From assembly GCA_001687465.1 (NCBI GenBank), contig LVLI01000251.1, forward strand, positions 62,001 to 126,000: a stretch of 64,000 bases of DNA. Direction: 5' to 3'. The notes below the pieces were generated by a model. That model was not told where the DNA came from. It ran no database searches and was given only the letters and a program-made list of their open reading frames with translations. Positions 3,742 to 52,308 of the stretch are shown here, in pieces. The stretch comes from Halocafeteria seosinensis (Eukaryota; Sar; Bigyra; Bicosoecida). Made by a program: the position numbers and the translations under genes. Numbering within the stretch: position 1 is the stretch's first letter; every line of letters begins with the position of its first letter.

Positions 3742-3786
3742 ATCGTTAGAAAGCGGGTTGACTTGGCAAAGCCACGAATTCCCCAT

Positions 3787-7056: not shown

Positions 7057-9519
7057 TTATTTATGTGCGCTTTCTAATGCTGCAAGCTCGCGTTTCACTA
7101 ATGCCACGCGTGCACTTAGTAGTTTGTCCGACCAATAAAACAAGGATGCATCTAGATGGTTCGTCGCTAGAATATCGTTGGAAATATCGTCATCCACTGC
7201 AAAGGGTATCTTTCGTTTATCCACGTTTTCCCGGTTGGTGAGTTGCTCACTAAGCCCTTTACTTATATGTAGCAAACGTTCCCACGCCTTGCTATCAGGC
7301 GCCCCCACATTCCGCGCTCCTTGAATAACATGTCGACTATCCTCCGTTGCCGACCTCATAGTATCGTCCACTACTCGCGGTATGTCGGAAGACAGATGAA
7401 TAGACTTATCTAGATTGGCTCCTTGAAAATGATAGTTCTGAGGCTTCTGACTCAGCTCTTTTTTGCGTGCTGCATCTTGCTCGGCGTCATAATCGTATTC
7501 CTGTCCCTCCCAATTGCCGAAAAGCAAGGGATCTTCGGAGACCCTAGCAGAGGGGAACCGCTTTAAGCGATCTGGTACAGTCACCCTTGGTCTCCAATCA
7601 AACGTGTAAAGCATCACTGCTATAGATTCGGGCAGCCGCTCCATTAATACAACTGCCGAAGAATTCAAAATCTGAAATTGCGCTTGGCGCAAGGCCGTCC
7701 TAGCCCACTCAAGGTACTGCTTCGGCAACTTGGTTTCAGGTGACACCGGCCCAGGAGCGTATTGTTTCATTCCTTCTGAATCCATAATACCGTCAAGGAG
7801 CTGTTGGAAAGCCAGCCTGCTCTGGTCCAATGTAAGCACCTGAGGCTCAGTCACAAGGCCGGATATCATCTTCACCTGCCGATTGCGCATCCCAAACGCA
7901 TGAAAATGGTTCAACATAAAGTTCCTAAAGTAATTCTTGCCATGATCGCCTTTTCCGAATTCATCATTACCGGTAGCCCAATGAGAGCCGAGGCCCTTGA
8001 ATTTCGGGTGATGACAGTAGTCCCAAACAGGTTGTCCTGCAATTGTTCATGCTTCATGTATTCTCAGACATTTACTGAAGGTTTGTACCGTTTTCGACTT
8101 ACCTCCAAACGCTAAATGTTTATACTCACTCAAAGTTCTCTTTACTGGATGCCTCAGGGCGGTAATGATACGGACACGGTTCGACTCTACTGCCATAGTT
8201 TCCCAAAGCGAGCCAAAAATGTCGCCCACGTGCATATGCTGCTGAAAAACATAGTTACATCTGTAACTATTAGGCGTAATTTTTTGGGGAGGATCGAATC
8301 CACTACATCCTCGTTCAAAGGACTCCTTGCGCGTTATTTTGTATTCTTCCAACTCCGCTCCTTTGTACCACGGATTCACGGCTTCCGAGTCAAATACAGG
8401 AATGATCCGCTCTGGAGCTTGCTCAAGGAACTCTGGACGAAGTCCTTTGAAATCGTATATTTTGGCTGCTCCACGTATCCAGTGATTATCGAGTACAATC
8501 GATTTTTCCTCCTTTGAATTTTCCACTGCTTTCCAGTAATCTGTGTCTTTGGTAACCTGAGCTTTTGCGAACTCGAGACGCTGTGAATAGGGGTCACGAA
8601 ACAGACGGGAAGCAGGCATAATGTCCCGCACTTCATTGACCTCCTCTGTCGTGGGAACAGCCGAGGTTCCAAAAAAGTTGGCGTTACATACAGTGCGGGC
8701 TGCACCGTCTCCTTTGAACGCATCTGCTAACAACCACAACAATATTGCGGTAACAGTCTTAGACGCCGTTTTCTGAACGCGAATAATTGCTGTCCAGTCT
8801 GATTTACTAATTCTGGAAACTTTGGGAAGCAAGATTGGCTGAAAGTTGAAACACTGGTTATCAGAATCCGGCAAAGTTGAAAACACGTGGTACGATTTTG
8901 ACACATCAGTTGAAACCTTCAGTAGCTTCTGCCAGTCGTTCCAGTCATGCATAGAGTGCTTGAACAGACTACAGTCATAAGCACTTGATTGCTTTTTTCC
9001 TGCACTGGTCGAGTCAGAAACGACATTGTGATTCACAGTTGACGTCTCTTCTTTACTCTCCGCAACATTCGTGTCCTTCTCCTCCTCTTTGGTGCTGGTC
9101 GTGGACGTACCAGAACTAGTCGTACTTATTGTTGTAACCGTGTTTCCTTCCGAACTTGTTTCCGGTTCAGCTTGTTGCTCCTTGAATGCACGTAAATGTG
9201 TTTGCGTCTGCCCTGTTTGGTCCTGTTTAGAGGCCTCTTGGGAGGACCCTTGGTCCCCCCTGGGTGAAAGATTTGGAAGTTTTTCCACAAGTGGTGGTAA
9301 ATCCTCTGTCACTCGGCGAAGAATGGGTCTTCCGTAGCCATTTGCGTCCGTTTCCAAGTGCACGCCGACCAGAGTCAGGAGGATTCCGACACAACAGATG
9401 ATGGCGAACAAGATGACGAGAGCATTTTTTACCCAGGAACCATTGGAACGACTATTTGAGCTTGATAAAGGGGAAGACCTCTTGACTTGAGACGACCGTG
9501 GGGGTTGGCGCAGCGCCAT
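7057..9519 (-). CDS. HS6ST-like carbohydrate sulfotransferase (type II membrane protein), copy B
   Basis: Two exons, 9519-8103 and 8036-7057, joined in phase 1; 798 residues. The start at 9519 (MALRQPP) precedes a membrane anchor (ALVILFAIICCVGILLTLVG) and a long Ser/Thr/Glu/Gln-rich stem of about 170 residues. The PAPS-binding elements are RVQKTASKTV near residue 250 and RHPVKRTLSEYKHL near residue 460. The single intron interrupts the same codon context just after SEYKHL as in copy A, so the two genes are duplicates. After the intron both read WDYCHHP and later share the NYFR and MRNRQ segments. The stem is longer and less conserved than the catalytic region. The function is inferred as Golgi polysaccharide sulfation. 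Confidence 0.8.
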
Positions 9520-9778
9520 TTCCTGCGTTGCTGAAGCTCCAAGACACTCCCACGCGCCATACACCCTCCTATAAGCCCACCTGACGCTATCTTCACAATA
9601 TCTTCATTTATAACGCGATATATGTAGCCAATGAATGGAAGTCAACTAGATCGGACAATCTTTTCTTTCATCACTGACACAGTGCTTTCATTGAGCTCGT
9701 TTCAGGCCGTATTGTGCAGTCTTGAGGAGCCTATTACATAGTACCAGTCGGCTTGGATAGCATACAATACGGAAGAGA
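9520..9778. promoter_or_regulatory. Short divergent promoter region (sulfotransferase B / UTP15)
   Basis: Only 259 bases separate the start codons of the minus-strand sulfotransferase and plus-strand UTP15, so this stretch must hold both promoters and 5' UTRs. No specific factor site was recognised. Confidence 0.4.
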
Positions 9779-12129
9779 ATGTCGTCTGATTTCCCGAAAT
9801 TGGAAATCAAACGATTTCCTCAACTGGAGGAAAGAGAGACCGAGGAAGGTAATGTCTATCTTCAGTGCTTTTTTTAGATGCTTTATGCACCGTGTATACG
9901 GGTCGTTTTGGCCCGATCCGATGTGAAAATGAGTATAGTTTGTCACCAAAGTGGAATAGCGTGATTGCATGGTGTATGTGCTCTGTTTGCAGCTCGGTTT
10001 TGGAAGCGCTTCCGTCGTCCCGTGACCATTTCCCAAGTACGTAATGCATTATATGGAGCGTTCCCATGCATTAGCCGTGTATGTATGCTGTATGCGATGC
10101 CATGTATACTAAATGCAGATTGGTGCTGTCAACCACTTATGCTTCAACCCAGTGGCCCCACACGACTTGGCGGTGACCACTTCAGCAAGGTTAGTTTGGC
10201 AATGATCACCATATGTGCTACTATCATTGCTCGATATCCTTTTCGGGATGTTTTGGCAGAATCGTGGTGTACAATGGACAGAATTTGGCACCGAAACACA
10301 CGTTCAGTCGGTTCAAAGATATTGCCCGATCGGGAGAATTCCGTCCCCGAGATGGCAAACTACTGGTCGGAGGAAGTGACAGTGGACCAATTCACTTGCA
10401 TAATGCCTCCACGAAAGCAATGTTGCGTGTATTCCGAGGTCATAAAGGCCCTGTATATGCAACAAAATTTAGTGGGAGAACAAATATAATTTCCGGTGGG
10501 GATGATGCTACGGTCAAAGTCTGGGATGTGTCTTCAGAAAGTCCTGTCACCAGTTTGGATAACAAACACACAGACTATGTGCGGGCCATCGCATGTTCGG
10601 ACGTATCGTCATCTATCTTTGCCTCTGGAAGCTACGACCACACTGTGAAGTTATGGGACAGTCGAGTACAACAGAGTGGCTCTGGCAGTCATCCCACAAT
10701 GGAACTAGACCATGGTGCTCCCGTCTCTGCGTTGATGATGCTGCGAGGAAACGGTACTCTTGTTAGTGCGGGAAGTAATTATCTCAAGGTTTGGGATATT
10801 GTGTCAGGGGGAAAGCTATTGACGACGTTGTCGAACCACCAGAAACAGATTACGACACTATGTCTTGACGGCACTCAAGAACGCTTGCTTTCAGGCGGCC
10901 TGGATGGGCACATCAAATTTTACGATCTCAACACGTACGAAGTTGCTTATGGATTTAAGCACTCCTCGCCCATTCTGAGTGCTGCTGTGAATGCTGATAA
11001 CACCCGTCTGGCCATCGGAACAACTGATAAGACGGTGACAGTAAAGCAGCGAATCGTGCCCAGCAAGCAAGTAGCTGCCGAAAAGAGACAAGCTGATGTT
11101 ATACGAGGAGGCTCCTACAAGTACTTCATGAGAGGGCAAAGTCGAACTCCTTCCACCAGTGACATTGTAGCCGAAACGGACAAAGCTCCCAAACTGAACA
11201 AGTACGAAAAGTATCTAAAGAAGTTCCAATACAACGAAGCATTGACTGCTACGCTGAGCACTTTCAACCCCATTATAATATTGTCGATGCTAGAGGAGCT
11301 GACACGCAGAGGGGGACTGCGTGCCGCCATTGCCAACAGGGATGAAACGAACCTGGAACCACTTGTCTCCTTTGTCGTTCGCTACATCACCCATCCCCGG
11401 TATAGCTCCGTGTTATTGGATGTAGCAAACATGATTTTGGATATTTATGCCCCTGTAATGGGTCAGAGCTACACAATTGACCACTGGTTTGTGAAGCTAC
11501 AACATAAACTGAGGGAAGAGTTGAAAGTGCAGCACCAACTGTTTCACTTACAAGGTGCTTTGGATGCGATTGTTGCAGCTTCCACCTCGAATCCGTATTA
11601 TGATTCTAATGAAAATAACCAAAGTCAGGAGGGAAATTTGTTGGAGGATGAGGATCAGGATCAATCTACACAGTCACAGAACGACCGAGAAGTACGTGTC
11701 GATGAAGCCACGGAGCATGAGGAAGATTTCTCTCCGGAGGCGATGGATTCAGTCGGGGCTGAGAAAAAGGAAGAGGAAAATGTATCGGAAGAAGAAGTTG
11801 CGAGCTCTCGAGACGAACAACTTGCAGGACAGCACAATCAGGTTGACGAAAACATCCAGGAAGAACAGAACGCCATGATCCCCGAAAACTCAGCCGACAA
11901 AATGGAAGGCAGCGTGGAGAAAACCCCCCAAACAGGGCGCAAAAGAAAGAAGAAACGTTCTGCTGGTGAGTCGTCCGAAGTCGACAATTCCACGGCCAAT
12001 GGGCATTTTGTCACTCCCTCAAAATTAGCTGAGACTAACCCCAGTACGGCAAAGGCTCCCAAGACGAAACCAAGCACGAAGAAGAAGCGGAAGAAACACA
12101 AGAAGTCATCTCCCGCTAGCACGACCTGA
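9779..12129 (+). CDS. UTP15: UTP15-like U3 snoRNP WD40 protein
   Basis: Four exons in phase: 9779-9848, 9993-10036, 10119-10189 and 10260-12129; 684 residues. The N-terminus MSSDFPKLEIKRFPQLEERE and the following RFWKRFRRPVTISQ match the conserved UTP15 opening. About six WD40 blades follow (for example GHKGPVYATKFSG, SGSYDHTVKLWD, SGGLDGHIKFYD). After them come YEKYLKKFQYNEAL and a helical region typical of the UTP15 C-terminal domain. The last roughly 200 residues are an acidic then Lys-rich tail (KKKRKKHKKSSPAS), probably nucleolar targeting. UTP15 belongs to the t-UTP/UtpA complex of the small-subunit processome, acting in rDNA transcription and 18S pre-rRNA processing. It converges on the WDR53-like gene with 77 bases between stops. 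Confidence 0.92.
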
Positions 12130-17977: not shown

Positions 17978-19738
17978 TCATGCCTCATCACCTATACAAT
18001 GTCTGCACCAAAACACACCTTCAGGGTCCCAGCGATTTTTGATTTTTAGTAGGTCCCCGTAGTTGCTTCCCCAGTACCGTTCTGTCCAATTAACCATGTT
18101 GTACGCGCTTTCGGAAAAGTAAGAGTTCGAGCCAAGGGAATAGTACTGTTGAGTGATTGTGGAGTTCCAATATCCAAATATAAAATGGAAGAGACTTGTC
18201 CTGAATCCACTGCTGATAGATACATTCGGGTTTTGAGGGGAATCTGTGTTTCCCGTAATATCAGTATACAATTGCTGAATCTCGCAGATACCTTCATTCG
18301 GGCAATCGTTTAGCCGGTTCTTAAGCAAAGAACTCAAGTCTCCGTTGGCGACTACATCTCTTCCCACAAAGACCGAAGGTAATCCTCCTGGGCTATTGCC
18401 TTCTGGTGCCAGCCAAGGGTTGGGGTGGATTGGTTCAAGCTCATAGTTCTTTACCAGATCCCACCACTCAGTATACTGAGCCATATACTGGCGTCCACCA
18501 GAAACAGATTCAGTGATATTCTTCCAAGTGTCATTGGCTTCAGCATTTGAGCCCAAAAACACATATTGCAGCACAAAAGTCCAATTACCTCCACACTGTG
18601 CTGATGACGAGGTACGTGGTGTTATAAATGCTAGTCCGCTCCAGGGCTTGTCCAAACGAAGCGCCCAGTTCAGGTAGTCATCAATAAGGTTGTGAAGATC
18701 TTGCTTGCCAGATGAGCACATCGAGCCACTCCATGTAGCTCGTGCAAGTGTAAAGCCTGATTCCGGATTCTTGTGGGCCCTTACCGTCAATGCTGTGATG
18801 ATTCCCCAAGTGGAGCCTCCCCCACCCCGGAGTGCCCAAAAGAGATCAGAATTCTCTTTGGAATTAGCGATGACTGAGGTTCCATTGGCGGTAACAATTT
18901 CGACTTCCAGAATATTGTCGACACCCAATCCGGCAGAGGGGGCAAAAGGTCCATGCCCCCCTCCAACGCTCCATCCGAGAATACCAACTGTAACGGCCCA
19001 TCCGGAAGAAATAAATCGATCATGTTGGCTAGCAGACTGCTGGAGCTCACTAAACGTGACACCTGGTCCCACTCGCACACTGCCGCCTTCAGTTCCAAAT
19101 CCTCTGGTATCATTAGGATCCCATTTAAACGACTTCATCAGCGTAGTACGTATCATAACTCCTTGGTCACAGCTGTGCCGATTCAAAAACTCATGACCTT
19201 CCCCGGCGACCATAATACACATGTTGTGGCGCAGAGCAAAATTGACAGCAGTTTGCACTTGCTCTGCATTGATTGGCCAGACCACCAATCCGGGGCTCCA
19301 ATTCTCCATAGGATTGTTCCGGACAGCGGCGAGACAAATAGGTCGACTTTCGGTTCCGTTCAGAAAGCAGGGCAGTCCGGCAGTGGAGCCGTCCCCGCTG
19401 TACACGGCATCCATTCCATCCTTTCCAAAGCCATATAGCGGCTGTTGATTTCGAGAGCCCACGGGAACCGCACAGGGCCTCGGATAGGAACTTCCTTTCC
19501 AATAAAGTGCCCTGTTGATGTTCCCGGATCCCAGGGTCTGGTTCAATTGGGCAATTTCCTCCTGTGTCGGCCAACATGGTTCACCACGGCGGCAGTGCGC
19601 GATTGTAGCGTCATTGCACTGGGGAAGAGAGACCGTAATAATCAGTAGCAGTAGTACCTTGGCGAGGAAACAGCGACGTGGTTGCTGAGAGTGGGAGTCC
19701 TGGGAATTCGTCCAGGTAGGTCGCAGGATCTCCAGCAT
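17978..19738 (-). CDS. Secreted FAD-linked oxidase (VAO / berberine-bridge-like)
   Basis: Single-exon gene of 586 residues from ATG 19738 (a longer upstream frame is ignored). A hydrophobic stretch, VLLLLIITVSLPQC, near residue 35 looks like a signal sequence. The FAD_binding_4 domain spans about residues 140-330: VVWPINAEQVQTAVNFALRH, AGEGHEFLNRHSCDQGVMI with a candidate flavin-linking His, and the dinucleotide loop GWSVGGGHGPFAPSAGLGVD. The C-terminus has the BBE-type ending YWGSNYGDLLKIKNRWDPEG. No Cys sits at the second flavin-linkage position of bicovalent BBE enzymes, so a single His link is likely. Many NxS/T sites fit secretion. The substrate is unknown; relatives oxidise alcohols, sugars or alkaloids with O2. 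Confidence 0.85.
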   Translation of the reverse strand: MLEILRPTWTNSQDSHSQQPRRCFLAKVLLLLIITVSLPQCNDATIAHCRRGEPCWPTQEEIAQLNQTLGSGNINRALYWKGSSYPRPCAVPVGSRNQQPLYGFGKDGMDAVYSGDGSTAGLPCFLNGTESRPICLAAVRNNPMENWSPGLVVWPINAEQVQTAVNFALRHNMCIMVAGEGHEFLNRHSCDQGVMIRTTLMKSFKWDPNDTRGFGTEGGSVRVGPGVTFSELQQSASQHDRFISSGWAVTVGILGWSVGGGHGPFAPSAGLGVDNILEVEIVTANGTSVIANSKENSDLFWALRGGGGSTWGIITALTVRAHKNPESGFTLARATWSGSMCSSGKQDLHNLIDDYLNWALRLDKPWSGLAFITPRTSSSAQCGGNWTFVLQYVFLGSNAEANDTWKNITESVSGGRQYMAQYTEWWDLVKNYELEPIHPNPWLAPEGNSPGGLPSVFVGRDVVANGDLSSLLKNRLNDCPNEGICEIQQLYTDITGNTDSPQNPNVSISSGFRTSLFHFIFGYWNSTITQQYYSLGSNSYFSESAYNMVNWTERYWGSNYGDLLKIKNRWDPEGVFWCRHCIGDEA

Positions 19739-20488
19739 CGTCCTCACTTTCCCAGGGTCCAGCGGCAGATATGCGCTTTTCCAAGACGGGTTTGAGCTTG
19801 CCAGAAAACGACAGAGCAATTGCGCACCAAACCGTGTGTGTTGATAGAGTGAATACAACACGCCAGTGGAGGCAGATGAAACTCTGCACAAAGCAATCTT
19901 TACTTGCACTTAACGAAGACATGCAGAAGAAGTTCCGCTACCGTAGTTGTTTGTCGCCCAGCCGAGGAAAAAACTGAGAACGAATGTAAAGCCAAAGAAG
20001 AGACTGTAGGAAGCATAAATGTGAAGTGCACTTCTTTCGGGCTGCGGGAGCAACGTGATACACAGTTTGCTGGAAATAAGCTTCGTTGTGTGTGTTCTTT
20101 GTACAGAGAATACCCCGGTACATGTGGTACAGTGGTCAGAGCATGGTATAAAAAGCTACAGTCTAAACTCAGGATCGAGCTACAACAGTAGCAAAGTCAA
20201 GAGCAGCAGGAAATACAACGTCATCCTTTCACTTAAGTTGGGTAATTGCAGGCCAGACTGGAACATATACCAGGTAGCTGAGATGAAGCTGAAACGGACG
20301 CAGTACATTAAAAATCATCAACACTTGCATATCAGACTAACGTGTGGAGGATGAACGCGCTCTGGATAGGCATGTGTTTATTAGTGACACCAAACATGTA
20401 ATACCATTCGAGCTAATTCAGCACATCGTCATGAATCTATTAGCCAAGGGATCATGGTTGTGCCACAGACACGTATTCTAGCTGTAAG
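19739..20488. other. Intergenic region
   Basis: About 750 bases between two minus-strand genes. Short open frames lack coding character. A weak tRNA-like string near 20121 was considered and rejected. Confidence 0.4.
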
Positions 20489-37965: not shown

Positions 37966-40900
37966 ATGAGTATCGGATCGGCTGCATGGGCTTTTATGAG
38001 CACATTTCGTGCTAAAAAGAGAGTGCATGTAAACAGTAAGCTGATAGCGCCATTTCATATTATCGTAAAGAGGGTCTATACGTGCACTTCGTTTTAACGC
38101 AGACGAGAAGTGGGCTTTACTGCAATGGCTAATCGCATCAGGTGAGTCTGTTCCTCGGAAACAAAAAGACATTCACTATGTAATCGCTTGTATCCTTTTC
38201 ACAGCTGTAATCCTGTACCTCTTCTTTCATATGTGGGGAGGTAAGCATCCAAACTGAGAAACGAATCGATAGCCTTTGATTTCGATATTACTGTGGCCGT
38301 ATGCAGGCATGAGCTTTATCAGATACAGACCAGTGAATGGGCTCGCGAGTGTCCAGGCAAGGGCTATGGGAAACTTTGCTGCCTCGCAAGGATCTGACTA
38401 TTGCAGCAGCGCAGCTTATTCTACCTCTTTCGGAGAACCGTAAGTGTGATACTTACAGCTAAAGCTGGGCCATCCTCTATCTGACATCGTTCGTAGTCGA
38501 CAAACAGATGGAGCGGAAGCAACATTCCATGTAGAAGTGTTGGATTGGACGATGTCATTGTTTCACGTAACCCGGATTCAATCTCAATCACCACTTTTGT
38601 GGCTGAGAGGTACGCAAGTCCAATCTCTGTGACTGCAAAATCAAGGTATCCTCGGATATTGTGTTCGAAATCTGTCTTGGCAGTAATCAAGGCGATACGG
38701 ACTCTCCAACCAGTCGCTATGTAAGTGAAGGTGGACTTTGCTGAGACAGCAAAGCTAATACGTCTTCTGGTTTTCTTTCGTTTTTTCCAGTTCACCGAAA
38801 ACTCAGAATTGGTTGAATTATCCATAGCGCACAAGTTTTCTCATGTTGGATCAACCGAGGTGGGAACGAATACTGCTTGCACACTCCGTGATACTTCAAA
38901 TAACCGTTTGAAATCGTTTCGTGGAGGATCTCCTATCACCGTTACCGTCACAGAGCTGTTAAATGCGGCGGGTATGTCTATGGTATCGCATTGTTCAATG
39001 CCTTGGAAAAGCCATACCTAAGAATTGGTGGGAAGTCACAGGTATATCTCTGGATGAAGAGCGCACTTACACTCTTCCCGGTGGTAACGAAGTTTCGGCT
39101 TTTCCACGAAACGCGGGAATTAGTCTAGTCATAGACATTGAGTATCAGAACTATGCATCCAATTTTCAGCTAGAGCAAGATGAATGTTATATTCACGTCA
39201 GGGAAACTGAGCGGCAGACTGGGCTCATAACCTATGTACCGACTCGAGGAACTCCTTCAAACACAGATGCGAAGTATGGACTAAGAATTGCGGTCAATGT
39301 AAGCGGGCGCATTGGCAAGGCAGATCCGTATGCAGTTATTTTAGCGGGAATAATAGTAGGTGGCCAAATTTATCTTGCTATGCCAGTAAGGTCTACCCTT
39401 GCCTGTCGCCATAATACAGGGAATAGTGTTGTTCTGGGCTCTAACGGACGTACTTTCCTGGATTGCACTGTATCGGTCATCGGAAATGAGGCAAGCGATA
39501 ATGGGAGATGACGAAAAGAAGCTAGCTACCACTGATAGTGTACGGTTCTATTAACTCACGGTAATTGTACGTGCTAGGGCATGCGCTAGGTTGTTTATGC
39601 AGAAGACGGGACACTGCGTCAAGAGAGATGAACTACGGTCTCTTTTGCGTACACTTTGGACGGATTTCTCCGAGCTTGGGATCACCATTAAAACGGTTCC
39701 TCTTCGCTGCACCACTAAGAACATTTTCTTGTCTTGGGAAGAGTTTGTTGGCTTTGTTGAAACCGAAAACCGGTGCTATACAGACGAGCGAATGAAAAAG
39801 AATGAGAACTCAAGAGTCCTCAGCAATGTAGCCAGAAAATCCGATGTCGAATCTCAAAGACATGAGCAGTTGACTGTAATAGTAGGGGATGAGTCCCAAG
39901 AAAGCGTTGGCGACGTATTGAAGGAAGAGAGTGACGATGATGCTGGGGACGAAGAGGAGGAAATGGACCAAATGGATGTCACTGAACCCGCTACCGCGTC
40001 CGCAGCTCTCCAGCCAGTGCAACATTCGCAAAATGTTGTGCTCATTGGGAATCTGGAAAATGCAAACAGCAAGGACAGCAGCATACTTGAGGCAGCTTCA
40101 AATGGATTTACGGACGTAATTTCCTCCGAAGGACCGGACACGGTGAGATCGGAGTTAAGTACTACAAACGTAGGTCCAGAAACCACCTCTACCACAGCGT
40201 ACACCGAAGTTGACGAAACGACCGTCACCCATGGTCAAATTAATCTCAACAATGCTAATGGAGACGATACGGTAGAATTAAATGATAAGACACCGCTAAA
40301 CGTTGATGAGAACTTGACTTGTCATGAATCGGCTGGTACTGGTACTACATCAGGCTCTGAGCAGCTTCATGAAACTGAGCCTGAAAACCAGAATGAAACG
40401 GTGTTTCCACAATACTCGCAAAATAATGGCGTGACTGAAAATGCTCTAGAGGAATGTCAAAGGCAGGGGACTTACGAGGAATTGGCTGGTACTGTCACAG
40501 CATCAGCCACTGAGCACCTTCACGATACTGAGCTTGAAAACCAGAATGAATCGATTCTTCTACAATCTTCGCAAAATGAGGGCAACGTCCACTTGTCTAT
40601 GACTGAAAGTTCTCCAGAAGAGCGTCAAGAGCAGGGGACCGAGCCTTTGGAACAGCACCAAGGTGCTGAGCCTGGAGATATTGATGTTTCACCCTCTGGA
40701 GCTTCTGAAAACATTGACGATGAGAACGTTCTAAGAGACGGCCAAGAGCAACACAATGAGGATACACAAAATATAATTGATGAGAAACCCGATGGTTCGC
40801 CGGCCGATGGCGAGCCTCATCTCCTTTCCAGGGATGAGCAAATCCTTAGTGTGGATGACCAGCTCACGGGGAACGAACTGCCGTCCGAAGAGTGTGGGCA

Positions 40901-43900
40901 GTCCTCAGTTGAAATCCATGAGCAACAAGAGAGTAAAACAAGACTGCAAGATGTCCACGGTGACGAACAAACCCTAGCACAAGAGTCTGGGGCCCGTGTC
41001 ATAGTAGCTAGTGAAAGTAGCAGCGAGTTCCCCGGAGACAAAAGAGCAGGGGGTGGAGAGGTGGAACTGGCAACTTTACCGAATGATACCGCATGGATGA
41101 CTCAGTCGGAAACGGAAAGCAAAGATCAATTAAGTACACAGACCACCGCTGAAGTAGAGGAACGAGAACTCGCACACAAGAATAGTGCGGAAGTTTCTTT
41201 AATGCGAGCTCAAACTGAGAATATCACCATAACGTCTAAAGTTTATCCTGTAGATCGAAAGAAGAAAAAGCGCCGAAAAAAAGGTAACCAATCTGCTTCG
41301 AACGTACTGGAAATAAGAGACGATGAAACTCCAGATAGCTCCAGACGATCCCAGAGTGTCAATCCGAGAGCTCACCCTGTTGTCACGGAGGAAGACGTTG
41401 ATGGAGACCAACACTCGAAGACAGTCTTCGTAGAGGCGTCAAGAGCATTGAATGTGGAAGACCAGCAGCCAACTCTAAATGACGAGAAACCTGTCGAGCT
41501 TGCTAGTCCGAAGGGTGACAACGAGAATACTTCCGTCCGCAGCACATCCTCTGAAAGTTATAAGGGTAATTTAGAACCTGTTGACGGTTTAGGTGAGTTT
41601 ATCTGCTGGTAATGTATCTTCGGTTCTAACCAATGTGTTTCGTATTTTCCCCAGAGCTACTCCCACGCCCTCAAAGCAATTCCTTCTCGGTCGACTCGGG
41701 GATTTTAACTAGCCGGAGAAGCAGGATGAACGAGGAATCAAATGTTGATGAAGAGACACATCCAGAGGAAGTCGACATACTACGTCAGTCTTACTCAGGA
41801 CCTGCTACATACGCGAACACCTCTGGTTCTGTCGAGAAAAGCGAACGCAGGGGATCGTTTTCCGAAGCGCATAGCGGAGAAGTGCTTTCTATTGTGTTCG
41901 ATAGCTGGAAACGGTGGACCCAAAAATCGTTAGAGGAAAGGCAACAATACGCCGGACAATACGGATTGTCCACTACTACACCTGAATACAGTAACTCGGA
42001 TAACTTCGTTACCATCGAAGCTACCTCGTTTTCTAAAGAACTACCTAAACGAAGCTCCCAGAAATCAAGGAGGGGAGACCACACTCCTCATGAGAGTAAT
42101 CAGGATGCTCCGAGGAGTCCTGCCCAAAAGCAGGGCGACCAGGAATCGAACGACGATGTTTTGCGTGACTCTATCGGTATCGAAGAAGTCCAGGTGGGTG
42201 ACGTTGAAGAGTCTAAATACTATGCAACTCCTACTAGCAGAAATACCGAGAGGTTGTCTACTGTGGCCAAGTATAATACCGCCGCTGACTGTATGGACAT
42301 TGAATCCTCCTCCCGGGAGCCACCTCAAGGAAACTCTCAGGAAGTAGGAAGCGAAGAACAGCTGAGCTCGTCCATGAGTCATCCACGGACGAACATGAAG
42401 GACGGCCAGGAATTAAACAATGATGTCTTGGGTGACTCCATCGGCATCAACGTCACCAATGGTAGCCTCCAGGATGTCAACTCCAAAGGCTATGCGACTA
42501 TGACTAGCGGAAAGAGCGAAAGAGTGAGCAATAGTGAAGGCACGCAGATTCCCGAAAGTTCATCAAGAGAGCGTCCACACATGTCATCAGATCAAAGTCA
42601 TATGAGCTTAGCCGACCTCGAAAGAATAGCTGTGGATGCGGATATGCCAAGCTACAACGTTGAAGCATTACTGAGGGTGGCCAAGTCCCCGTCAACTTAT
42701 TACATCGATGATGACATTCCCCCCAATCATCACGAAGAAGATTCGAATGCAGTAGGAGTTGCACGATCCCGTTCCACGAAAAGCTCTCGGAGCGCATCAG
42801 GAAGAGAAGGTAACTCCAGCAACCTCGAGGCCAAATTGTCTTTCCGTAAGCGCCCCGTGCATGACGAGGACCAAGAGGAGCAACTTCGTACCCCTCGTCG
42901 TGCACTGACCAGGAGACTCTCTCGACATACTATGTCAAGCAGATCTAAAGGCTTTGGGACCTCTGATGGTAGCAAAGCAAACAGTACTCCGGGAACTGAA
43001 GAAACTGAGAATAGATCGCTGACGCGCACGAAGAGTGCGTATATTGCCCCAGACCTGGCTTTCGCTGCGACAGGAAATGCTTTCAGTCCAGCCATATGCG
43101 GAGGAACTCTGAATTCGAAGCCCTTATCTAAGAAGCACTCCATGCGATCGAAGAAAGTGAGCAGTGAATGGGATGAGGGTAATGGAATTGATAGAAGACA
43201 TGATAGGGCTAGCACGGATTTTGATGACGACAGACACGGTGACACAGCAGAGCATTCACGAAAACGGCGTGGACGTAGTACGTCAGACGTCCGTAGCCGT
43301 GACTCGCAGAGAAGTATGAAATCTTCAGCCAGCATGCATCAAATGCGAGGATATGCGACGGCAACCGAGGGAGCTCATCAGAATCCGTCACACAATCGTT
43401 CCCGCAGCTCCCATACTCATCATACTCGCGAGTCACAAGAAGACGTGCACCACTCATATAGCAAACTGTTTCCTGCCGCAAGCAGCTACCAACTAATGTC
43501 ACACTCCAGAAATGCTGAAAACGCCCTCAGTGCACCCAGAGGTGCTAGCGAGGAAAATGGTAGACATGAGACGCGCAGTGAAAGTCGACGACGTAAAAAG
43601 CACTCCCATCGCAAGCATTCGAGCAGACATTCAGATGGAATTTCAAGAGAGAACTCTCCACAGCGTGTTTACCAAAACGTTGGGCCTGCGCAACAACCTG
43701 TGATGGCTCTTGTAGCTGGGGAAGCCTACAGGCAGCACGCCGCAGAACAGGAGCAAATAGCTCGTCGACAAGAATATGAAAGGCAAAGATACGAGTGGGA
43801 GCAACAGCTGCGGAGACAACAGCATGAATTGGCGCTACGGAGACAGCACGAAGAGGCGCGGCGCAAGCTGATCGAAGATTCCCGTCAGCAGCAAATTGAA

Positions 43901-44116
43901 TATCAACGCCAAAGATTAATGGCGCCAGCCTTTCAAGGGCCATACCAGATGCCACCTTATCAGCAACAAATGCAATCCTTCGGGTCGCAGGGACCATTAC
44001 AACCATATAACGCCCCTCATCCTACTTCTCAAGCGTTTGTCGGCCAGCCAGTTGTAAGACCTCAATACCCCCAGCCAGGTATACAGCCCTACCCCCCTCA
44101 AGGTAGAAGGTATTGA
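37966..44116 (+). CDS. P2X-type ligand-gated cation channel with giant cytoplasmic tail
   Basis: Eleven exons in phase: 37966-38035, 38103-38141, 38205-38240, 38307-38439, 38514-38609, 38684-38720, 38791-38971, 39042-39355, 39420-39539, 39603-41592 and 41655-44116; about 1,825 residues. A short cytosolic N-terminus with a TFRAKK sequence precedes TM1 (LLQWLIASAVILYLFFHMWG). The ectodomain begins YRPVNGLASVQARAMG, aligning with the P2X start (SSVTTKVKG), and ends YGLRIAVNVSGRIGKAD, matching P2X GIRFDILVFGxxGKFD. TM2 is PYAVILAGIIGIVLFWALTD then VLSWIALY, with the conserved Asp. The ectodomain has only about four Cys. The tail is acidic, Ser/Gln/Arg-rich, with internal repeats, and ends in a Gln/Arg coiled coil and Pro/Gln segment. 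The exon 5 acceptor (GAG) is the weakest junction. Confidence 0.72.
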
Positions 44117-44594: not shown

Positions 44595-45058
44595 ATTGCT
44601 TATAGCTTCGCCTGTGGACGCAAACCAAAGTATCTACTGTCGGCCACTGTTGATCGTTCCTTCACCTCGGGTATTCGCTTACCTTGTTTCTTTTCTCGTG
44701 TAACTAGATCTGCATCAAAGATCGAAATTGTACGTACCAATCCATACACAGAGTGTAACCGGCTGCTGTTTAACTGTAGCTGTAGAGTCTCATGACTGGC
44801 GGCTGCCAGCCGGGCCGGGCGGGCCCGGGCTTGTAGCCCGGTGTCAGGCACAACGTGACAAAGTGTCACAGGCTGTGTCACAGAGTTGTGCTCCCACTTG
44901 AAGGAATTCAAAGAGCTACTTCCAGTATATTTGGTGGTCGAACTAGCAAAGCAATTACCGCAGGGCGTGTGACTGTCCGCGCTGTTACTTTGTTGTTCTG
45001 AGGCCACACCAGTGCTGCACGTACATGTATTCCCCAAAGCTTGCGGAGGGAATCAAGT
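44595..45058. other. Intergenic region with GC-rich palindromic block
   Basis: Upstream DNA shared by OST5 (-) and the first TTL-like gene (+). It contains a GC-rich block at 44795-44842 with two small hairpins, TGGC-GGC-T-GCCA and CCGGGC-TTGTA-GCCCGG. A 145-codon minus-strand frame across it (starting MGNTCTC) looks like chance. Confidence 0.4.
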
Positions 45059-46576
45059 ATGCTTACAAAGTGGATGGCTCCGTTCATTATAGCAATGATG
45101 ATTCTTTCTCCTGAGGACTCTGCGCGAGCTACTATTTTAGGGGCAAGTACGACGTCCTTGGTTGCAGGGAAAGAAACGACGGATGCTGTACTAAACCAAA
45201 TCGATCGGCTCTGGAGAGATTCGAAGAAAGATGAGAGAGTGAGGTTGCGCTGGGCTTTGGCAGGTGCCTCGAACAAGTACAACCGAGTCTACAATGACGT
45301 GAAAGATACCCTGGCTCTTCACTTTAACATGGTTGAAGACACAAAACGTTTCAATATTCTTTTCGATATATCTATAGACACGAAGCAGATCCTGAAACTT
45401 CCTGGTTGGAATGGAGAGGAGCACATCTTTTCCAAGGTGGCTCCTAACACTCGAGTGTTACGTATTCCCAACCTTCAGTTCGAAACTGCAAACAGGAGCA
45501 GACTATGTGAAATATCAAACAGAGGCTTTAGAGAAACAGGGTTAAGAATAGCTCCACCGTGCTTTGATGGGCCTGTTAAAGATCTCCAGAGTGCGATGCA
45601 ACTTTTCTCATCGACCAAAGCATGGATCTTTAAAAAGTACGGTACTTCGGGTGGAAAGGGTCAACAAATCGTTCCCAGAAACACCTTGCAAAGTTACATT
45701 GCAGAAGAAGGTGTCCTACAAGCCCTAATTGAACCAGTTCCGTTGTACGGTAGAAAGGCTGACTTACGCATTTACGCCGTTATTTGTTCCTTTGATCCTC
45801 CGCGGATATACATCTCTAGAAACGGATATGTTCGTATAGGCTCAAAGGACATGTCCAAGCCAACGAACTTCGGTTATGTTTCGCGAACGGGACAAGAAAT
45901 ATACCATCAGACTCGTGCTTCCGAACAAACGCTTTCGTCAATTTCAACTCTAGGGCACTACTGGAGTTTGCTCAGGTCCATAGGAATAAATGTGAATAGA
46001 CTATGGAAGAGGCTGAAGAAAAAGATTGCACTAGCATTCTTGCTCTCAGGTCAAAACAAGTTTGGTTGCAAGACAAACAAAGTTCCGTACCCGTGCGGGT
46101 CGGCCACAGCGGCGGTAACAATTGATGTCATCATTGCTAGCACTGGAGAGCCGTTTATAATGGAAATTATGACTTCCGCTGGCAATTTCAAACCGCCAGG
46201 GACATTTGGCCAGTTGCATGGCGGCATCGAAGCTCGAAAGGCCCTGTGGGGGGGATATGCTTTACAGATGTCAGCACTGACAGAAAAGCACATGCGCATA
46301 AAGCATTTGAGTTATTTAAGAAATACAAACGTTACGAGTCTACTACGACAACTTCGCAAGTATTCGGTTGAGGAAGGTGTAAGACTGTTGACTGATATGA
46401 CAGTAGAGAGACAGTTCTCTTGTCATGTAAACTACGAGAGCATTTTACCATCCTTAACTTGGAATGGCTTCTCGAAGTTCATTGGCCCAGATGAGGAGAT
46501 TCTCTATGAAATCCACCGGCACCTGTCGATATTGAGCGGATTTTCTAAGAGTTCATGCGTTCAGTTCAAGTTTTGA
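45059..46576 (+). CDS. Secreted TTL-like (tubulin-tyrosine-ligase-like) ATP-grasp protein, copy 1
   Basis: Intronless, 505 residues from ATG 45059 (an upstream TTG frame was ignored). A signal peptide, LTKWMAPFIIAMMILSPEDS, opens the protein. The body follows the TTL order: RLRWALAG, then WIFKKYGTSGGKGQQI (the ATP-binding Lys and Gly-rich loop of TTL, WIxKPxxxSxGxGI), LYGRKADLRIYAVICSFDPP then RIYISRNGYVRIG (TTL: KFDLRxYVLVTSFDPLxxYxYxxGxxR), GHYWSLLRSIGINVNRLW, and a late VTIDVII...EPFIMEIMTSAGN in place of the TTL EVNxSP. It is predicted to ligate an amino acid to a protein, but in the secretory route rather than on cytosolic tubulin. It ends in the cluster-wide FKF motif. Confidence 0.7.
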   Translation: MLTKWMAPFIIAMMILSPEDSARATILGASTTSLVAGKETTDAVLNQIDRLWRDSKKDERVRLRWALAGASNKYNRVYNDVKDTLALHFNMVEDTKRFNILFDISIDTKQILKLPGWNGEEHIFSKVAPNTRVLRIPNLQFETANRSRLCEISNRGFRETGLRIAPPCFDGPVKDLQSAMQLFSSTKAWIFKKYGTSGGKGQQIVPRNTLQSYIAEEGVLQALIEPVPLYGRKADLRIYAVICSFDPPRIYISRNGYVRIGSKDMSKPTNFGYVSRTGQEIYHQTRASEQTLSSISTLGHYWSLLRSIGINVNRLWKRLKKKIALAFLLSGQNKFGCKTNKVPYPCGSATAAVTIDVIIASTGEPFIMEIMTSAGNFKPPGTFGQLHGGIEARKALWGGYALQMSALTEKHMRIKHLSYLRNTNVTSLLRQLRKYSVEEGVRLLTDMTVERQFSCHVNYESILPSLTWNGFSKFIGPDEEILYEIHRHLSILSGFSKSSCVQFKF

Positions 46577-46617
46577 TATGATCCGATAACGTTGGAAGAG
46601 TTCAACCAGGATATGGC

Positions 46618-47330
46618 AAGATGAGCTCCCTGCTCACACCGTTGCACGAGCCAAGCTGTCCACGAAGGCAGGAGGACTAGGGATAGTCATCTCGGACCAC
46701 GCAGCAGAAGCATCGCATATCGCCGGGGCGATCGACGCGTCAAAAACGATCCAACAAGTGACAGAAGATGAGCAGGATCTACTCGCGCAATACCGCTGCC
46801 ATGCCTCGCGGAGAGTCAGAACGCGCCGCAGGAAACAATCAGACTCCCGGATGCGAGCTACAAAGGCTACTGGAGCAAAACGAAGCTGCAGTAACACCTG
46901 GGCAAGAAGTTGCAGAGAGTAGCTACACGAACCCTGAAAGTGACGCTGACCCCACAGCAGAAAGCGTTGCTGATACCTTGCCAAGCGGACGGAGCAGCTG
47001 CAGGGCTATATACGCAGCGCCAAAGAAGGGATTTGCATTAACCGACACCGAGTAAGTGGTAGCAGTGCGCGTGCGCCTAGGGCTACCGGCCATCCCGTGA
47101 ATGAACACCAGACACAAATCTGGTCGAACACAAGGTCTGTCGTTTCATCCTCTAATGGCCTAGTTACATGGACGATGATATTGGCTTATCTTGCCCTGCA
47201 GCGCAAAGTGTGAGAGGACATGTACAACCAGTGTGTGTGTGTGTGTGTGGTAGGTCAAAATCGTCGTTGTGGCATAGCGAAAGACAATTCACATGTATGG
47301 GCATTCCTCGTTTACCACAAATCATAGGCT
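46618..47330 (+). mobile_element. Degraded non-LTR retrotransposon fragment (RT C-terminal region)
   Basis: The plus strand reads, across frames and stops, AKLSTKAGGLGIVISDHAAE from about 46650, then QKALLIPCQADGAAAG near 46955-47010, AAPKKGFALTDTE near 47012-47050, and VVAVRVRLGLPAIP just after an in-frame TAA. This order (GGLGI; L...QKALL; F.LTD.E(F)..A(V/L)R.RLGLP) is typical of the region after the reverse-transcriptase domain of LINE-type elements. Cys/His remnants may continue to about 47330, interrupted by a (GT)n tract at 47231. Multiple stops and frameshifts mean it is inactive. No poly-A tail or target duplications were identified. Confidence 0.6.
47231..47249. repeat. (GT)n microsatellite
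   Basis: About nine GT units in a row, within the decayed retrotransposon region. Confidence 0.9.
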
Positions 47331-47718
47331 CGATAGCAACAACTGCCCTCTTTCATTAATACCTTCTCTACAAACAGCAAGGAGTCTGCGGCGCTCTGTG
47401 CTTGGCAGGTTTTCCGGTCCGGGACGGAGACGGGCCATACCTGCTACTTTGTGGAGAATCCTGTAGGAAACGCTATGATGGCGAGTTGTGGACGTTTTCC
47501 AGCTTTTGGCCTGATTCATGTCCTCAATTCCACTTACACTGTTGTCCTACTGAACTCCTATATGTGTAAGCAATACTTGTAGCAACCTGTTATTGCCTTG
47601 AAGGAAAACGCTGTAGACTGTACCAAGTACTGATATGGTGGTGCTTCCTTTCAAGCGGGATTGCTAACGATTCATAAGCTTATACCAGTCGCCAAGGATT
47701 CTTTGTGAGGGACTTTAC

Positions 47719-49356
47719 ATGATGCGAACTCCCATATTTATTATTCTACTCGCTATTGTGACCACACCTGTGGCTTTTTTGGGCTACAAGATCGCCGAAT
47801 TAAAGCAGCAAAGTGAGTATGCGCGTGTGGCTTATATTGGAAGCAACGAACAGACATTAGCAGAACATGAAATTGGAAGCCGAGGAGTTGCTAGTAATGG
47901 GAATGGGGAAGCAACTCTGCCAACACAGTCCTCATCGATTTCGCATACTCATGACGAAAATTTCTGGCAGGAGTTATCCAGAAGCATTGGCCACACATTG
48001 ACTGCCGTCGTAGGGTATCAGAAGGCTCCTCTCCGCTGGGCGCTGGACGGGAGCTCAGGCCAGTACCGACGAGTACATGACGACCTCGCGAGCACCCTGA
48101 AACTACACTTTGGGATGATTGAAGACGCACTGCGCTATAATATTCTCTTTGATGCAACAGAAGAACCACTTAACATGCAGAGTCTAGCTAGTTGGGAGCA
48201 TGAAAGACAGATCCTCTCTTCGGCGGGCCCGCAAACACGAGTACTCAGAATTCCAGGGCTCCAACGCGAATTGGTTAGCGTAGCCAGACAATGTGAAGTG
48301 TCGGAGAAAAGCTTCACGGACACTGGAATCAGGCTGTCACCTCCTTGCTTTATGGGTCCAGTGCGAAACCTCCACGAAGCTATGGGAGCATTCCCTCATA
48401 TTACCAGTTGGGCATTTGTCGAGAATACGACTGGTGGCCACGAATACTTCGGACAGGACACCATGCAGATTTCAATCCAAAAAAGCGGAATTCTTCAATC
48501 TCTGCCAGACCCCGCTCCTCTATTCGGGAAAAGAGCGCAATTGCGTGTCTACGTAGTTGTGGCTTCCCTGGATCCACCCCGGATTTATATCTCCCGTGAT
48601 GGATACGTTCAAGTGGACTCAGACATGGCGCAGTCTGGTGATTTCCAAAACATCGCCAAAGTCCATACGAACCAATTTATCCCACAGACGCTAGCTTCAG
48701 AGCAGAAGATGGCCTCCGCGGCAACTACAGGGCATTATTGGAGCATGCTTCACTCTCGTGGCCTTGACGTGGACAAGATATGGACAATACTCCAGAAGAA
48801 GATAGCTTTGAAGATTCTCCTATCTAATAATAACGTTTTCGGTTGTAAGACAAACCCGATTTCGTATCGCTGTGGTAGAACAACGCTGTTACTCTTAATG
48901 GATATAATCGTTGATAAAACAGGAGATCCGTTCATCATGCGAACGACCTCTAACCCCGGAAAGCTAGAGCCCACCAAAGCGGAGCAGCTGCTGAGTATTG
49001 GTATTGAATCACGAAGAGGATTATGGGGTGGCTATGCTTTGCAAATGTCACCATTAATTGAGCCGAGGCTGCGTATCAGCTTCCTAAAATGGCTCCAAGA
49101 TAACGATTCCGCCAAGAAATTGCAACAACTCCGCAAGTACTCTGTTGAAGAAGCCGTTGAGCTTCTTGCCGATGCTGCAGTCGAGAGCAGATTTGCCTGT
49201 AGTGTCAATTACGAAGAGATCCTTCCAACATTTGGGAACGAAGATATCTTCGCGCGGTATCTTCATGCAGATGATAAGTTACTATACGGTATCCACCGGA
49301 GTTATTTGGATTCCCTGGCATTTGACAGCGATTCTTGCGCTCTGTTCAAGTTCTGA
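47719..49356 (+). CDS. TTL-like ATP-grasp protein, signal-anchored, copy 2 (possibly inactive)
   Basis: Intronless, 545 residues. The hydrophobic N-terminus RTPIFIILLAIVTTPVAFLG acts as signal or anchor, followed by an Asn/Ser/Glu-rich spacer longer than in the other copies. TTL landmarks: LRWALDGSSGQYRRVHDD, a weakened nucleotide loop (WAFVENTTGGHEYFGQD, lacking the Lys), LFGKRAQLRVYVVVASLDPP, RIYISRDGYVQVD and GHYWSMLHSRGLDVDKIW. The late metal/nucleotide strand reads FIMRTTSNPGK instead of FIMEIMTSAGN: the acidic residue is Arg. Loss of both Lys and Glu suggests a pseudo-enzyme. It shares the ending SVNYEEILPTF ... CALFKF. Divergent from copies 1 and 3. Confidence 0.65.
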   Translation: MMRTPIFIILLAIVTTPVAFLGYKIAELKQQSEYARVAYIGSNEQTLAEHEIGSRGVASNGNGEATLPTQSSSISHTHDENFWQELSRSIGHTLTAVVGYQKAPLRWALDGSSGQYRRVHDDLASTLKLHFGMIEDALRYNILFDATEEPLNMQSLASWEHERQILSSAGPQTRVLRIPGLQRELVSVARQCEVSEKSFTDTGIRLSPPCFMGPVRNLHEAMGAFPHITSWAFVENTTGGHEYFGQDTMQISIQKSGILQSLPDPAPLFGKRAQLRVYVVVASLDPPRIYISRDGYVQVDSDMAQSGDFQNIAKVHTNQFIPQTLASEQKMASAATTGHYWSMLHSRGLDVDKIWTILQKKIALKILLSNNNVFGCKTNPISYRCGRTTLLLLMDIIVDKTGDPFIMRTTSNPGKLEPTKAEQLLSIGIESRRGLWGGYALQMSPLIEPRLRISFLKWLQDNDSAKKLQQLRKYSVEEAVELLADAAVESRFACSVNYEEILPTFGNEDIFARYLHADDKLLYGIHRSYLDSLAFDSDSCALFKF

Positions 49357-49932
49357 TTTATGTTTATTGTATTTATTCTACCGGGAGAGCTATAATAAAA
49401 ATCCGGCTATAACAGCGACTGCCCATGCTTCCTGGTTCAGTGCATGAGTGGTTGGCATTTGACGAAGTCGCGAAGTGTGTCAACTGTCTCTTTCGTTGTC
49501 GTTAATTGGAAAGTTTAGAATGTTGGTGCATACCTACCCAAACTTTATTCGTGCCAACATGTTAACACGTCATTGAATCCTTCCATCCACTCGTATAGTT
49601 TTTCATCGTTTGCGCTGCCTCTCTCCGAACAGCGGGCCCGTCGCTGCCAGACAGGGGCGCCAGCTGTTACCCAAGTAGCGGCTCACATCCAACTGCTGGT
49701 GGCCCATCAGTCACATATTCGTCGTCGTTGTGATACTGTCTGAGCATTCACACCAGAAGACTCAGCATCCCTTTGAACTATCGCCCGCTTCTTCAAGCTA
49801 TACATTGGCACGATAACATCAGACGACCTCATGCGCCAATACAATGCTAGTGCTCGCTTGACCTTTGCACGTACCGAAACATATTGAGTGAACTAAATCC
49901 TGAACAGTATGGGCCAGTATCAAAGTAGGTAT
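49357..49932. other. Intergenic region between convergent TTL-like copies 2 and 3
   Basis: About 576 bases between convergent stops. No gene, RNA or repeat recognised. Confidence 0.4.
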
Positions 49933-51489
49933 TCAGAACTTCAACTGAACGCAAGATCGTTGAGGATACCGCACGGAACTCAAGTATTCTCGATAAATAT
50001 CATACAACAGCCTTTCATCTGGCCCGATATACGATGAAAACTCCCGTCTGTCGCCGAACGCCGGCAAAATGTTATCGTAGTTCACATGACACGAAAATTG
50101 AGCCTCTACTGCCATGTCAGCCAACAGCCTTATACTATCCTCAATTGAATAATTGCGGAGCTGTTGGAGTGCATCCATAATGTTGGCTCTCTGTAGCCAC
50201 TCCAAAGCCTCGACACGGATACGAGTTTCAGTTAGCGGTGACATTTGCAGAGCATATCCTCCCCATAGCGCTTTACGTGCTTCAATACCATTATACAACC
50301 ACTTATAAGCTCCTGGTGGCTTGAAGTTTGCTGGGCCAGTCATAGTCTCCATGACGAAAGGCTCCCCCTTCTTGTCAATTATGACGTCGATAGTGACCGA
50401 CGCTGTTGCCGTCCCACAGCGGTATGGAATTTGGTTTGTTTTGCAGCCAAAGCGATTTTGTCCGGAAATTAGGAACTGCAGTGCAACTTTTCTTTTGATT
50501 CTTCTCCACACACGATGCACATTGAGCCCACGTGAGCGCAAAACGGCCCAGTAGTGCCCAAGCGTTGTTATCGAGGATAGCCGTTGTTCCGAGGCAAGAA
50601 CCTGTTGGTAGGCGTTTCTGCCTTCACCGAAGATGTAGTGGAAATTGGTGGGTTCAGAAACGTCTGCCGACCCTATACGAACATATCCATGTCGAGAGAT
50701 GTATATGCGAGGAGGGTCAAATGAGCCAATAACAGCGTAGAGGCGTATATCAGCCTTTCTACCGTACAAAGGCACCGGTTCAACTAGAGCTTGTAGCACA
50801 CCCTTACGCATTACTTTGTATTTTAAGGTATCCGACCGGAAGAGCGTTTGCCCCTCTCCTCCTGAAAACCCGTCCTCCTTGAAGAGCCAGCTGCTAACTT
50901 CCGGAAATTGCCGCATTGTGTTCTGGAGATCCCGAATGGGTCCGACGAAGCATGGTGGGGATATCCTTAACCCGGTTGCTTGGAAACCTTGGTTTGACAC
51001 TTGGCACAATCTGCCTCTACTGGCGGTTTCGAATCGCAAGTTAGGGATGCTTAGTACGCGCGTGTTAGGGGATAGCTTGGAAAATATGTGTTTCACTCCT
51101 TTCCACCCGGCAAGTTTCATAAGCTGACTGGTATCCTTGGAAATATCGAAGAGAATGTTAAAGTTTTTGCGGTCCTCCACCATGCCGTAGTGTAACTCAA
51201 GCGTATCTTTTATGTCTTGATGAATATCCTTGTAATTGCCGGACACGCCTGCGAGGGCCCAGCGTAATGGCGCTCCCGTGTTTTGCTGGAGTTGATGCGG
51301 TGCCAACAGCCCATGCTTTCCTGTTTCGTTGGAGATTCTCGCCTCATAACGTAAAAGAGCGCTAGTCGGGACGCAATAAGCTCCATTCAATACTGCCATT
51401 ATGAACGAGAAAGTAGCGAGTATGTGCCATGTAGGACTAGGTTGTGTCCGCGAGGCATCTGGTATTGGTATTTTAGGTTGATACATCAC
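49933..51489 (-). CDS. Secreted TTL-like ATP-grasp protein, copy 3
   Basis: Intronless, 518 residues. Signal-type N-terminus WHILATFSFIMAVLNGAYCV after a polar leader. It is the closest paralogue of copy 1: LRWALAGVSGNYKDIHQDIK, WLFKEDGFSGGEGQTL (nucleotide loop with Lys), LYGRKADIRLYAVIGSFDPP, RIYISRHGYVRIGSADVSEP, GHYWAVLRSRGLNVHRVW, FGCKTNQIPYRCGTATASVT and FVMETMTGPANFKPPG (Glu and Asn retained). The shared C-terminal domain follows: EARKALWGGYALQMSPLTE, YSIEDSIRLLADMAVEAQF, CHVNYDNILPAF and the final FKF. The Cys-containing segments and leader fit a secreted or luminal enzyme. Substrate unknown. Confidence 0.7.
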   Translation of the reverse strand: MMYQPKIPIPDASRTQPSPTWHILATFSFIMAVLNGAYCVPTSALLRYEARISNETGKHGLLAPHQLQQNTGAPLRWALAGVSGNYKDIHQDIKDTLELHYGMVEDRKNFNILFDISKDTSQLMKLAGWKGVKHIFSKLSPNTRVLSIPNLRFETASRGRLCQVSNQGFQATGLRISPPCFVGPIRDLQNTMRQFPEVSSWLFKEDGFSGGEGQTLFRSDTLKYKVMRKGVLQALVEPVPLYGRKADIRLYAVIGSFDPPRIYISRHGYVRIGSADVSEPTNFHYIFGEGRNAYQQVLASEQRLSSITTLGHYWAVLRSRGLNVHRVWRRIKRKVALQFLISGQNRFGCKTNQIPYRCGTATASVTIDVIIDKKGEPFVMETMTGPANFKPPGAYKWLYNGIEARKALWGGYALQMSPLTETRIRVEALEWLQRANIMDALQQLRNYSIEDSIRLLADMAVEAQFSCHVNYDNILPAFGDRREFSSYIGPDERLLYDIYREYLSSVRYPQRSCVQLKF

Positions 51490-52308
51490 AATTCCTGAAT
51501 AATACCCTCAATGAAGGCCACTGGTAAAGCATTAAGTGCATGCTATGCCCCTAGCTGCGCAATATTCCTGTAAAATAGCTAGAAACTGCTAAATAAAGTT
51601 GTCCAACCTGGTACGAAATTTTTGGGTAACGGAGTCCGGGTTAAACAGGCTGGTGTGTGATTCAACTTCAACTATAGCAAGTGCCGCTCTAGTAGCGCTC
51701 TACTCGTACAATGTATTGGGCATTACTAAGCGCAACCACTTGCAACACATGCTACAATCACTCCTCTGCACCAGACAGCTTAGGCGCAATCGAAGACACA
51801 CACACACACACACACACACACATGTGACAGATAGCCCAGCGGCCAGGAAGTTGACCGCATCCTCTTAACTCTTTGGCTTTTGAGCCGGAGTCCGGGTAGC
51901 AGGAATATTCATCCTTTGGGATTCCTTCGAGTCACCTGCAGGAGTATCTCCGTTTTAGTCGGTATACGGGTTAGCATGTTTAGCAGACAATAGCACATCC
52001 CAAGACAGCCGGTACTTTGTCAGCACTGCCCAAGCAGTTCGTGTTTCTTGGGTTCACAGTGAACCGTTCAATCAGTGAGTCAGTGCCACTGGCCACACCC
52101 TCCACTTCACAAAGCATCTACAGGATGGCCTCAACGATTGAATAGCTAAATTCTCCTCTGTTTTGATTATAGCTATCATGCATTCAATTTATTCATGCCG
52201 TCGCATTGATACGTCTTATGGGATGGCTTCTCCCTCTAATGGGCGGTCTTTTAAGTTTGAGCGGGAACCTTGATGTATTGTTGGCCTAGATTTTGGGGTC
52301 TCCTCAAC
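51490..52308. other. Divergent intergenic region with duplicated 5' flank
   Basis: Upstream of TTL-like copy 3 (-) and the kinase-like gene (+). It holds a (CA)n microsatellite at about 51796-51823. The last about 130 bases (52180-52308) resemble the 5' flank of the gene at 60336-61916 (for example TTCATGCC.TCGCATTG and CTCC.TCTAATGG.CGGT in both), showing that the promoter was copied along with the coding start. Confidence 0.6.
51796..51823. repeat. (CA)n microsatellite
   Basis: About 14 CA units between TTL-like copy 3 and the kinase-like gene. Confidence 0.9.

Follow-up and report, generated by a model that had tools for sequence, protein, structure and literature searches.

We analysed a 64,000-nt stretch of the Halocafeteria seosinensis genome (GenBank assembly GCA_001687465.1, contig LVLI01000251.1, positions 62,001 to 126,000, forward strand), called here the window, in which a split gene lies at positions 37966-44116 of the plus strand. 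The gene is real and codes for a P2X-fold channel. P2X channels are the textbook receptors for adenosine triphosphate (ATP). By descent, as judged from sequence, the window protein is a divergent member of the P2X superfamily: P2X kinship extends over residues 4-310, two hydrophobic segments are present, and the residues expected to contact ATP are replaced.

Exon structure, splicing and predicted tail of the window gene

The 11 exons splice to a single frame of 1827 codons followed by one terminal stop, and all ten introns have GT-AG borders, are 62-74 nt long and leave the exons joined in phase. This agrees with an earlier note on this DNA, made from the letters alone, which had described 11 in-phase exons separated by introns of 61-75 bases. 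The acceptor of exon 5, which the same note had put near 38513, is better placed at 38507/38508. The features are the following, with TM1 and TM2 standing for the first and second transmembrane segments.

37966..38035, plus strand: exon 1, start codon and short cytoplasmic N-terminus, with FRAKKRV replacing P2X Y-x-T-x-K/R in the alignments
38103..38141, plus strand: exon 2, first half of TM1
38205..38240, plus strand: exon 3, second half of TM1
38307..38439, plus strand: exon 4, start of the ectodomain, conserved Cys81
38508..38609, plus strand: exon 5, ectodomain, conserved Cys101; acceptor 38507/38508
38684..38720, plus strand: exon 6, ectodomain
38791..38971, plus strand: exon 7, ectodomain, most of the family motif ELLxxAGIxLD
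39042..39355, plus strand: exon 8, end of the ectodomain (YGLRIAVNVSGRIGKAD), then start of TM2
39420..39539, plus strand: exon 9, remainder of TM2 (Asp displaced by three residues) and juxtamembrane segment
39540..39602, plus strand: intron 9, joint of channel and tail; unspliced, it leads to a stop at 39552-39554
39603..41592, plus strand: exon 10, predicted cytoplasmic tail, falling on the disordered side beyond residue ~450
41655..44116, plus strand: exon 11, predicted cytoplasmic tail, Ser/Arg-rich then Gln/Pro-rich; stop codon

A purpose-written gene predictor, with splice profiles seeded with the window gene's own introns, returned the identical 11 exons; because the profiles derive from the same introns, this run is partly circular. 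More independent profiles were built from 16 introns elsewhere in the genome (63-82 nt), pinned by transcript-derived proteins: P0002 and P0004 match their genes over the full length, P0003 has one mismatch in 518, and P0001, 398 residues long, agrees with its gene up to residue 371 apart from a few mismatches. With these profiles, three of five predictor settings chained exons all the way from 37966 to 44116, each of the three treating intron 2 as coding sequence, and a permissive setting found 10 of the 11 exons plus extra ones. Intron 2 (38142-38204) is 63 nt long, in frame and stop-free, so that de novo prediction can take it for coding sequence. Its retention would add 21 residues within TM1, and homology therefore favours its removal; it is also a possible place for regulated splicing. 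Results showed nothing over the predictor's floor in 20 of 20 Markov-shuffled copies of the channel region.

Downstream of the channel, the gene model predicts a tail of ~1,480 residues, which is acidic, then Ser/Arg-rich, then Gln/Pro-rich, and by charge-hydropathy 10 of 10 windows after residue 450 fall on the disordered side. No Pfam family exceeded its cut-off in the tail parts scanned. A genome search covering two tail pieces (686 and 205 residues, ~890 in total, leaving out the rest of exon 11) returned only the window gene itself. We also looked at two features spotted by eye: an EF-hand-like juxtamembrane pattern found no Pfam support, and internal tail repeats were absent at an expectation value (E) of 1e-3. 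The predicted tail did not appear in the earlier note and is new here, together with the extreme divergence of the protein.

As intron 9 is the joint between channel and tail, we considered whether two genes might be present, namely a P2X-like channel of 349 residues ending at the stop at 39552-39554 and, downstream of it, a second gene that starts from the ATG at 39597 and encodes a disordered protein. Without splicing of intron 9 the reading does stop four codons on, and none of the ten introns has a weaker donor (GTACGG, 2.04); moreover, the searched tail parts have no relative elsewhere in the genome, and the tails of the paralogs are far shorter. However, the two genes would sit just 42 bases apart on the same strand, intron 9 has a better acceptor than any of the other nine introns (8.39, a score reached by 0.05% of the AGs in the window), its length fits, both sides are joined in phase, and 5 of 5 predictor settings use it. 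We therefore regard two genes as unlikely and favour a single gene whose tail would be joined to the channel.

P2X kinship and the ATP-contact positions

The P2X homology proposed in the earlier note was borne out, via paralogs of the same genome and family profiles rather than motifs. The PF00864 check that the note had suggested fails on the window protein alone, at 12.4 bits against a cut-off of 27, a shortfall that marks the detection limit of one model and no trait of the protein; the first A-type paralog reaches 54.6 bits. Searched alone against the PDB, the window protein matched no chain at E<=1. Of 7997 database candidates scored with an alignment of ten paralogs plus the window protein, 16 proteins were matched, and PF00864 is present in 13 of these; the same alignment, thus including the window protein, retrieved P2X1, 2, 3, 4 and 7 from the PDB with P2X4 as the best match (3.9e-14). 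A profile of 12 database proteins, built without the window protein or B-type sequences, gave 101.6 bits to human P2X4 and 54.0 bits to the window protein, the best of 1000 shuffles reaching 2.7; these 12 were picked among the matches of an alignment including the window protein, and all of them carry PF00864 themselves. With a combined A- and B-type profile, the window protein was aligned without a break over residues 4-310. An unrooted maximum-likelihood tree of 22 rows groups the window protein with the seven B-type proteins (support 100/99), and structure prediction returned the P2X fold for two paralogs. DUF6580 was considered as the family and rejected (16.4 bits against a cut-off of 27, residues 277-323, in the TM2 region).

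Hydrophobic segments at residues 25-53 and 290-324 flank an ectodomain of ~245 residues, in keeping with the order of short N-terminus, TM1, ectodomain and TM2 read earlier, and homology would place both termini inside the cell. The protein resembles vertebrate P2X4 in its two membrane segments, in the ectodomain core and in a GK-x-D before TM2, and TM2 itself aligns with that of vertebrate P2X4 without gaps (9 of 32 positions identical). It differs from vertebrate P2X4 in its replaced ATP contacts, in the Ser found in place of the TM2 Asp and in a predicted tail ~1,450 residues longer; between the membrane segments we counted four Cys in the sequence versus ten in human P2X4. At the N-terminus, the motif Y-x-T-x-K/R is replaced by F-R-A-K-K, its Thr becoming Ala.

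Several observations weigh against the gene model or against this reading of the protein. The strictest predictor setting keeps 3 of the 11 exons and loses the 5' channel exons, and the predictor run on the channel region alone scores 8.2, just above its floor of 8, and gives a different last exon. The codon signal is weak in the channel exons, and 25%, 35% and 48% of all AGs in the window score at least as well as the acceptors of introns 4, 7 and 8, respectively; because of these weak acceptors and this weak codon signal, support for the joins in the channel region comes chiefly from frame and homology. The conserved Asp of TM2, which the earlier note had claimed to see, is Ser here, with an Asp displaced three residues upstream, and Gly29, kept in all 21 other aligned rows, is Ala. 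The end branch of the window protein is long (2.5 changes per column) and the tree program calls its placement unsure, so that the protein may have lost its function as a channel or the branch may be misplaced. The model of the B-type paralog is modest, with a predicted local distance difference test (pLDDT) of 62.2 and a template-modelling score to P2X of <=0.44 by query length, and we infer the ectodomain fold of the window protein from the predictions for the two paralogs. Finally, two protein-database searches (E<=0.01; proteins of ~228-725 and ~1005-3197 residues) yielded no match and hence no transcript-derived protein for the window gene; the second used words from its first 500 residues and scored the best 7981 candidates, those sharing most words. 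This absence fits a gene missing from the published list and also leaves its expression uncertain.

Taken together, the missing transcript match, the weak codon signal of the channel exons and the long branch could describe a decaying or silent gene. Nevertheless, 1827 stop-free codons, ten in-phase GT-AG introns and two long open exons with a strong codon signal (75.3 and 54.1 nats) speak against decay, and we judge this explanation improbable.

We then compared the positions of human P2X4 that we take to contact ATP (Lys67, Lys69, Thr186, Asn293, Arg295 and Lys313). In two alignments the window protein has Gln, Arg, Glu, Glu, Gln and Ala there, so that none of the six keeps the P2X4 residue, the nearest being Lys69 replaced by Arg; the stretch 186-295 is aligned with less certainty. 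With its ATP contacts lost and an Asp in TM2 that is off the conserved place, the protein lends no support to the term ATP-gated used in the earlier note. An ordinary ATP-gated receptor is very improbable even considering the P2X kinship and architecture and the algal OtP2X, which is ~28% identical to human P2X and still responds to ATP (PMC3853471), as PMC5447177 deems the P2X proteins of this species probably ATP-insensitive for the same reason, their ATP residues being partly or not conserved. The P2X of Ostreococcus tauri is, like the window protein, a protist P2X with low similarity to animal P2X; unlike the window protein, it is reported to retain lysines at the positions of rat P2X2 Lys69 and Lys308 and to be opened by ATP (PMC3853471). 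The window sequence is best read as a P2X pore that lacks a recognisable site for ATP and is probably gated or modulated in another way.

P2X genes of the species and neighbouring loci

Searches with PF00864 and with proteins identified 13 further P2X-like genes in the genome: three on contig C103, two each on C183, C217 and C161, one each on C15 and C371, and two on C264, where a locus has a 95%-identical copy on C598 and the pair is counted once. Gene models were built for 12 of these 13, and for the C15 gene we relied solely on a match to P0005. The P2X genes of the genome are matched at or near identity by transcript-derived proteins with the label GECG01, that of the Halocafeteria transcriptome. 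Partial or weaker P2X copies are also present. One of them, at G000:C371:50693-51381, is a partial match to P0001 at 57-59% identity. It lies ~900 bases away from the intact gene, on the other strand, and has internal stops that may reflect introns or decay. The stretch shared by C264 (~3482-11492) and C598 spans ~8 kilobases at ~95% identity including intergenic DNA, corresponding to haplotypes or a recent duplication; it holds the P2X gene pair, and on C598 the two flank a further copy that is weaker and may be degraded.

A sequenced genome of H. seosinensis has been reported (PMC6972860), and in the literature searched P2X and Halocafeteria occurred together in PMC5447177 only. That study (2017) describes 13 expressed P2X genes of the species in three clades and reports that the N-terminal Tx[K/R] is kept in all 13 apart from a single Ser and a single Ala. 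Among the 13 other genes found here, of which four were read from their database proteins, that Thr is replaced exactly once by Ser and once by Ala, and the window gene would add a second Ala. The gene count and this Ser/Ala pattern, along with the ectoine synthase genes described below, agree with H. seosinensis as the source of the DNA. Since the published pattern is already accounted for by the other 13, the window gene is probably a 14th P2X gene missing from the published list. Therefore, while the P2X expansion of the species and its likely loss of ATP binding are already known (PMC5447177), this member seems to be unpublished. It is like the published set in architecture and in poorly conserved ATP residues, and differs in its far longer tail and in its own PF00864 score under the cut-off.

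The earlier note had called P2X channels patchy outside animals, which is fair, although the expansion in this species has been in print since 2017 (PMC5447177). P2X is reported absent from diatoms and the other stramenopiles examined (PMC11085791) and from oomycetes (PMC4820453); PMC5447177, unlike the first of these, names a diatom among P2X-rich protists.

Elsewhere in the window, positions 45002-51507 hold three consecutive tubulin-tyrosine-ligase-like open frames, two on the plus and one on the minus strand, the second just below the Pfam cut-off, and positions 17978-19909 encode a flavin-dependent (FAD) enzyme of the berberine-bridge type (PF01565 and PF08031). In the rest of the genome, ectoine synthase loci at G000:C33:55312-55779 and C93:18298-18788 are each in three pieces with short, intron-like gaps, which fits genes of a halophilic eukaryote. 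An ectoine hydroxylase is mentioned for H. seosinensis in PMC5447177.

Proposed function

With a probability of about 0.7, the observations are best explained jointly by a P2X-fold cation channel subunit that opens without ATP, uses its tail to tether partners or tune gating and works in salt homeostasis. The subunit would assemble into trimers, alone or with other members of the organism's P2X set, and conduct cations through a pore lined by TM2. Opening would be caused by something besides extracellular ATP, such as another ligand, the membrane or osmotic state, or an intracellular signal, and the predicted, mostly disordered tail would most likely tether partners or tune gating from inside. 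Salt and ion homeostasis in a halophilic flagellate is the likely setting, because salt alters the expression of six of the 13 P2X genes published for the species, raising four and lowering two (PMC5447177). A bolder version, which we consider improbable, has a channel freed from gating by extracellular ATP and placed under the control of its giant cytoplasmic tail. Disordered and rich in charges, the tail would sense cell volume or ionic strength, and the channel would serve as an osmosensor in a salt-saturated habitat.

The tail of P2X7 has ~240 residues. Should the tail of the window gene truly be joined to the channel, it would be far longer and would offer a clean case for a disordered cytoplasmic region acting on a trimeric channel. 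As in P2X7, for which a fusion has been proposed, late exons extend the P2X gene at its cytoplasmic end; the ballast of P2X7 is a folded zinc-binding domain (PMC7016195), whereas the window tail is mostly disordered by composition, with no Pfam family in the parts scanned.

In conclusion, the tail and the extreme divergence mark a variant and no new kind of system, and interest is tempered by the expansion and likely loss of ATP binding already published for the species (PMC5447177). The window gene and its relatives nonetheless retain the channel while dropping the ATP site, and they could therefore reveal a role of the P2X fold without ATP.
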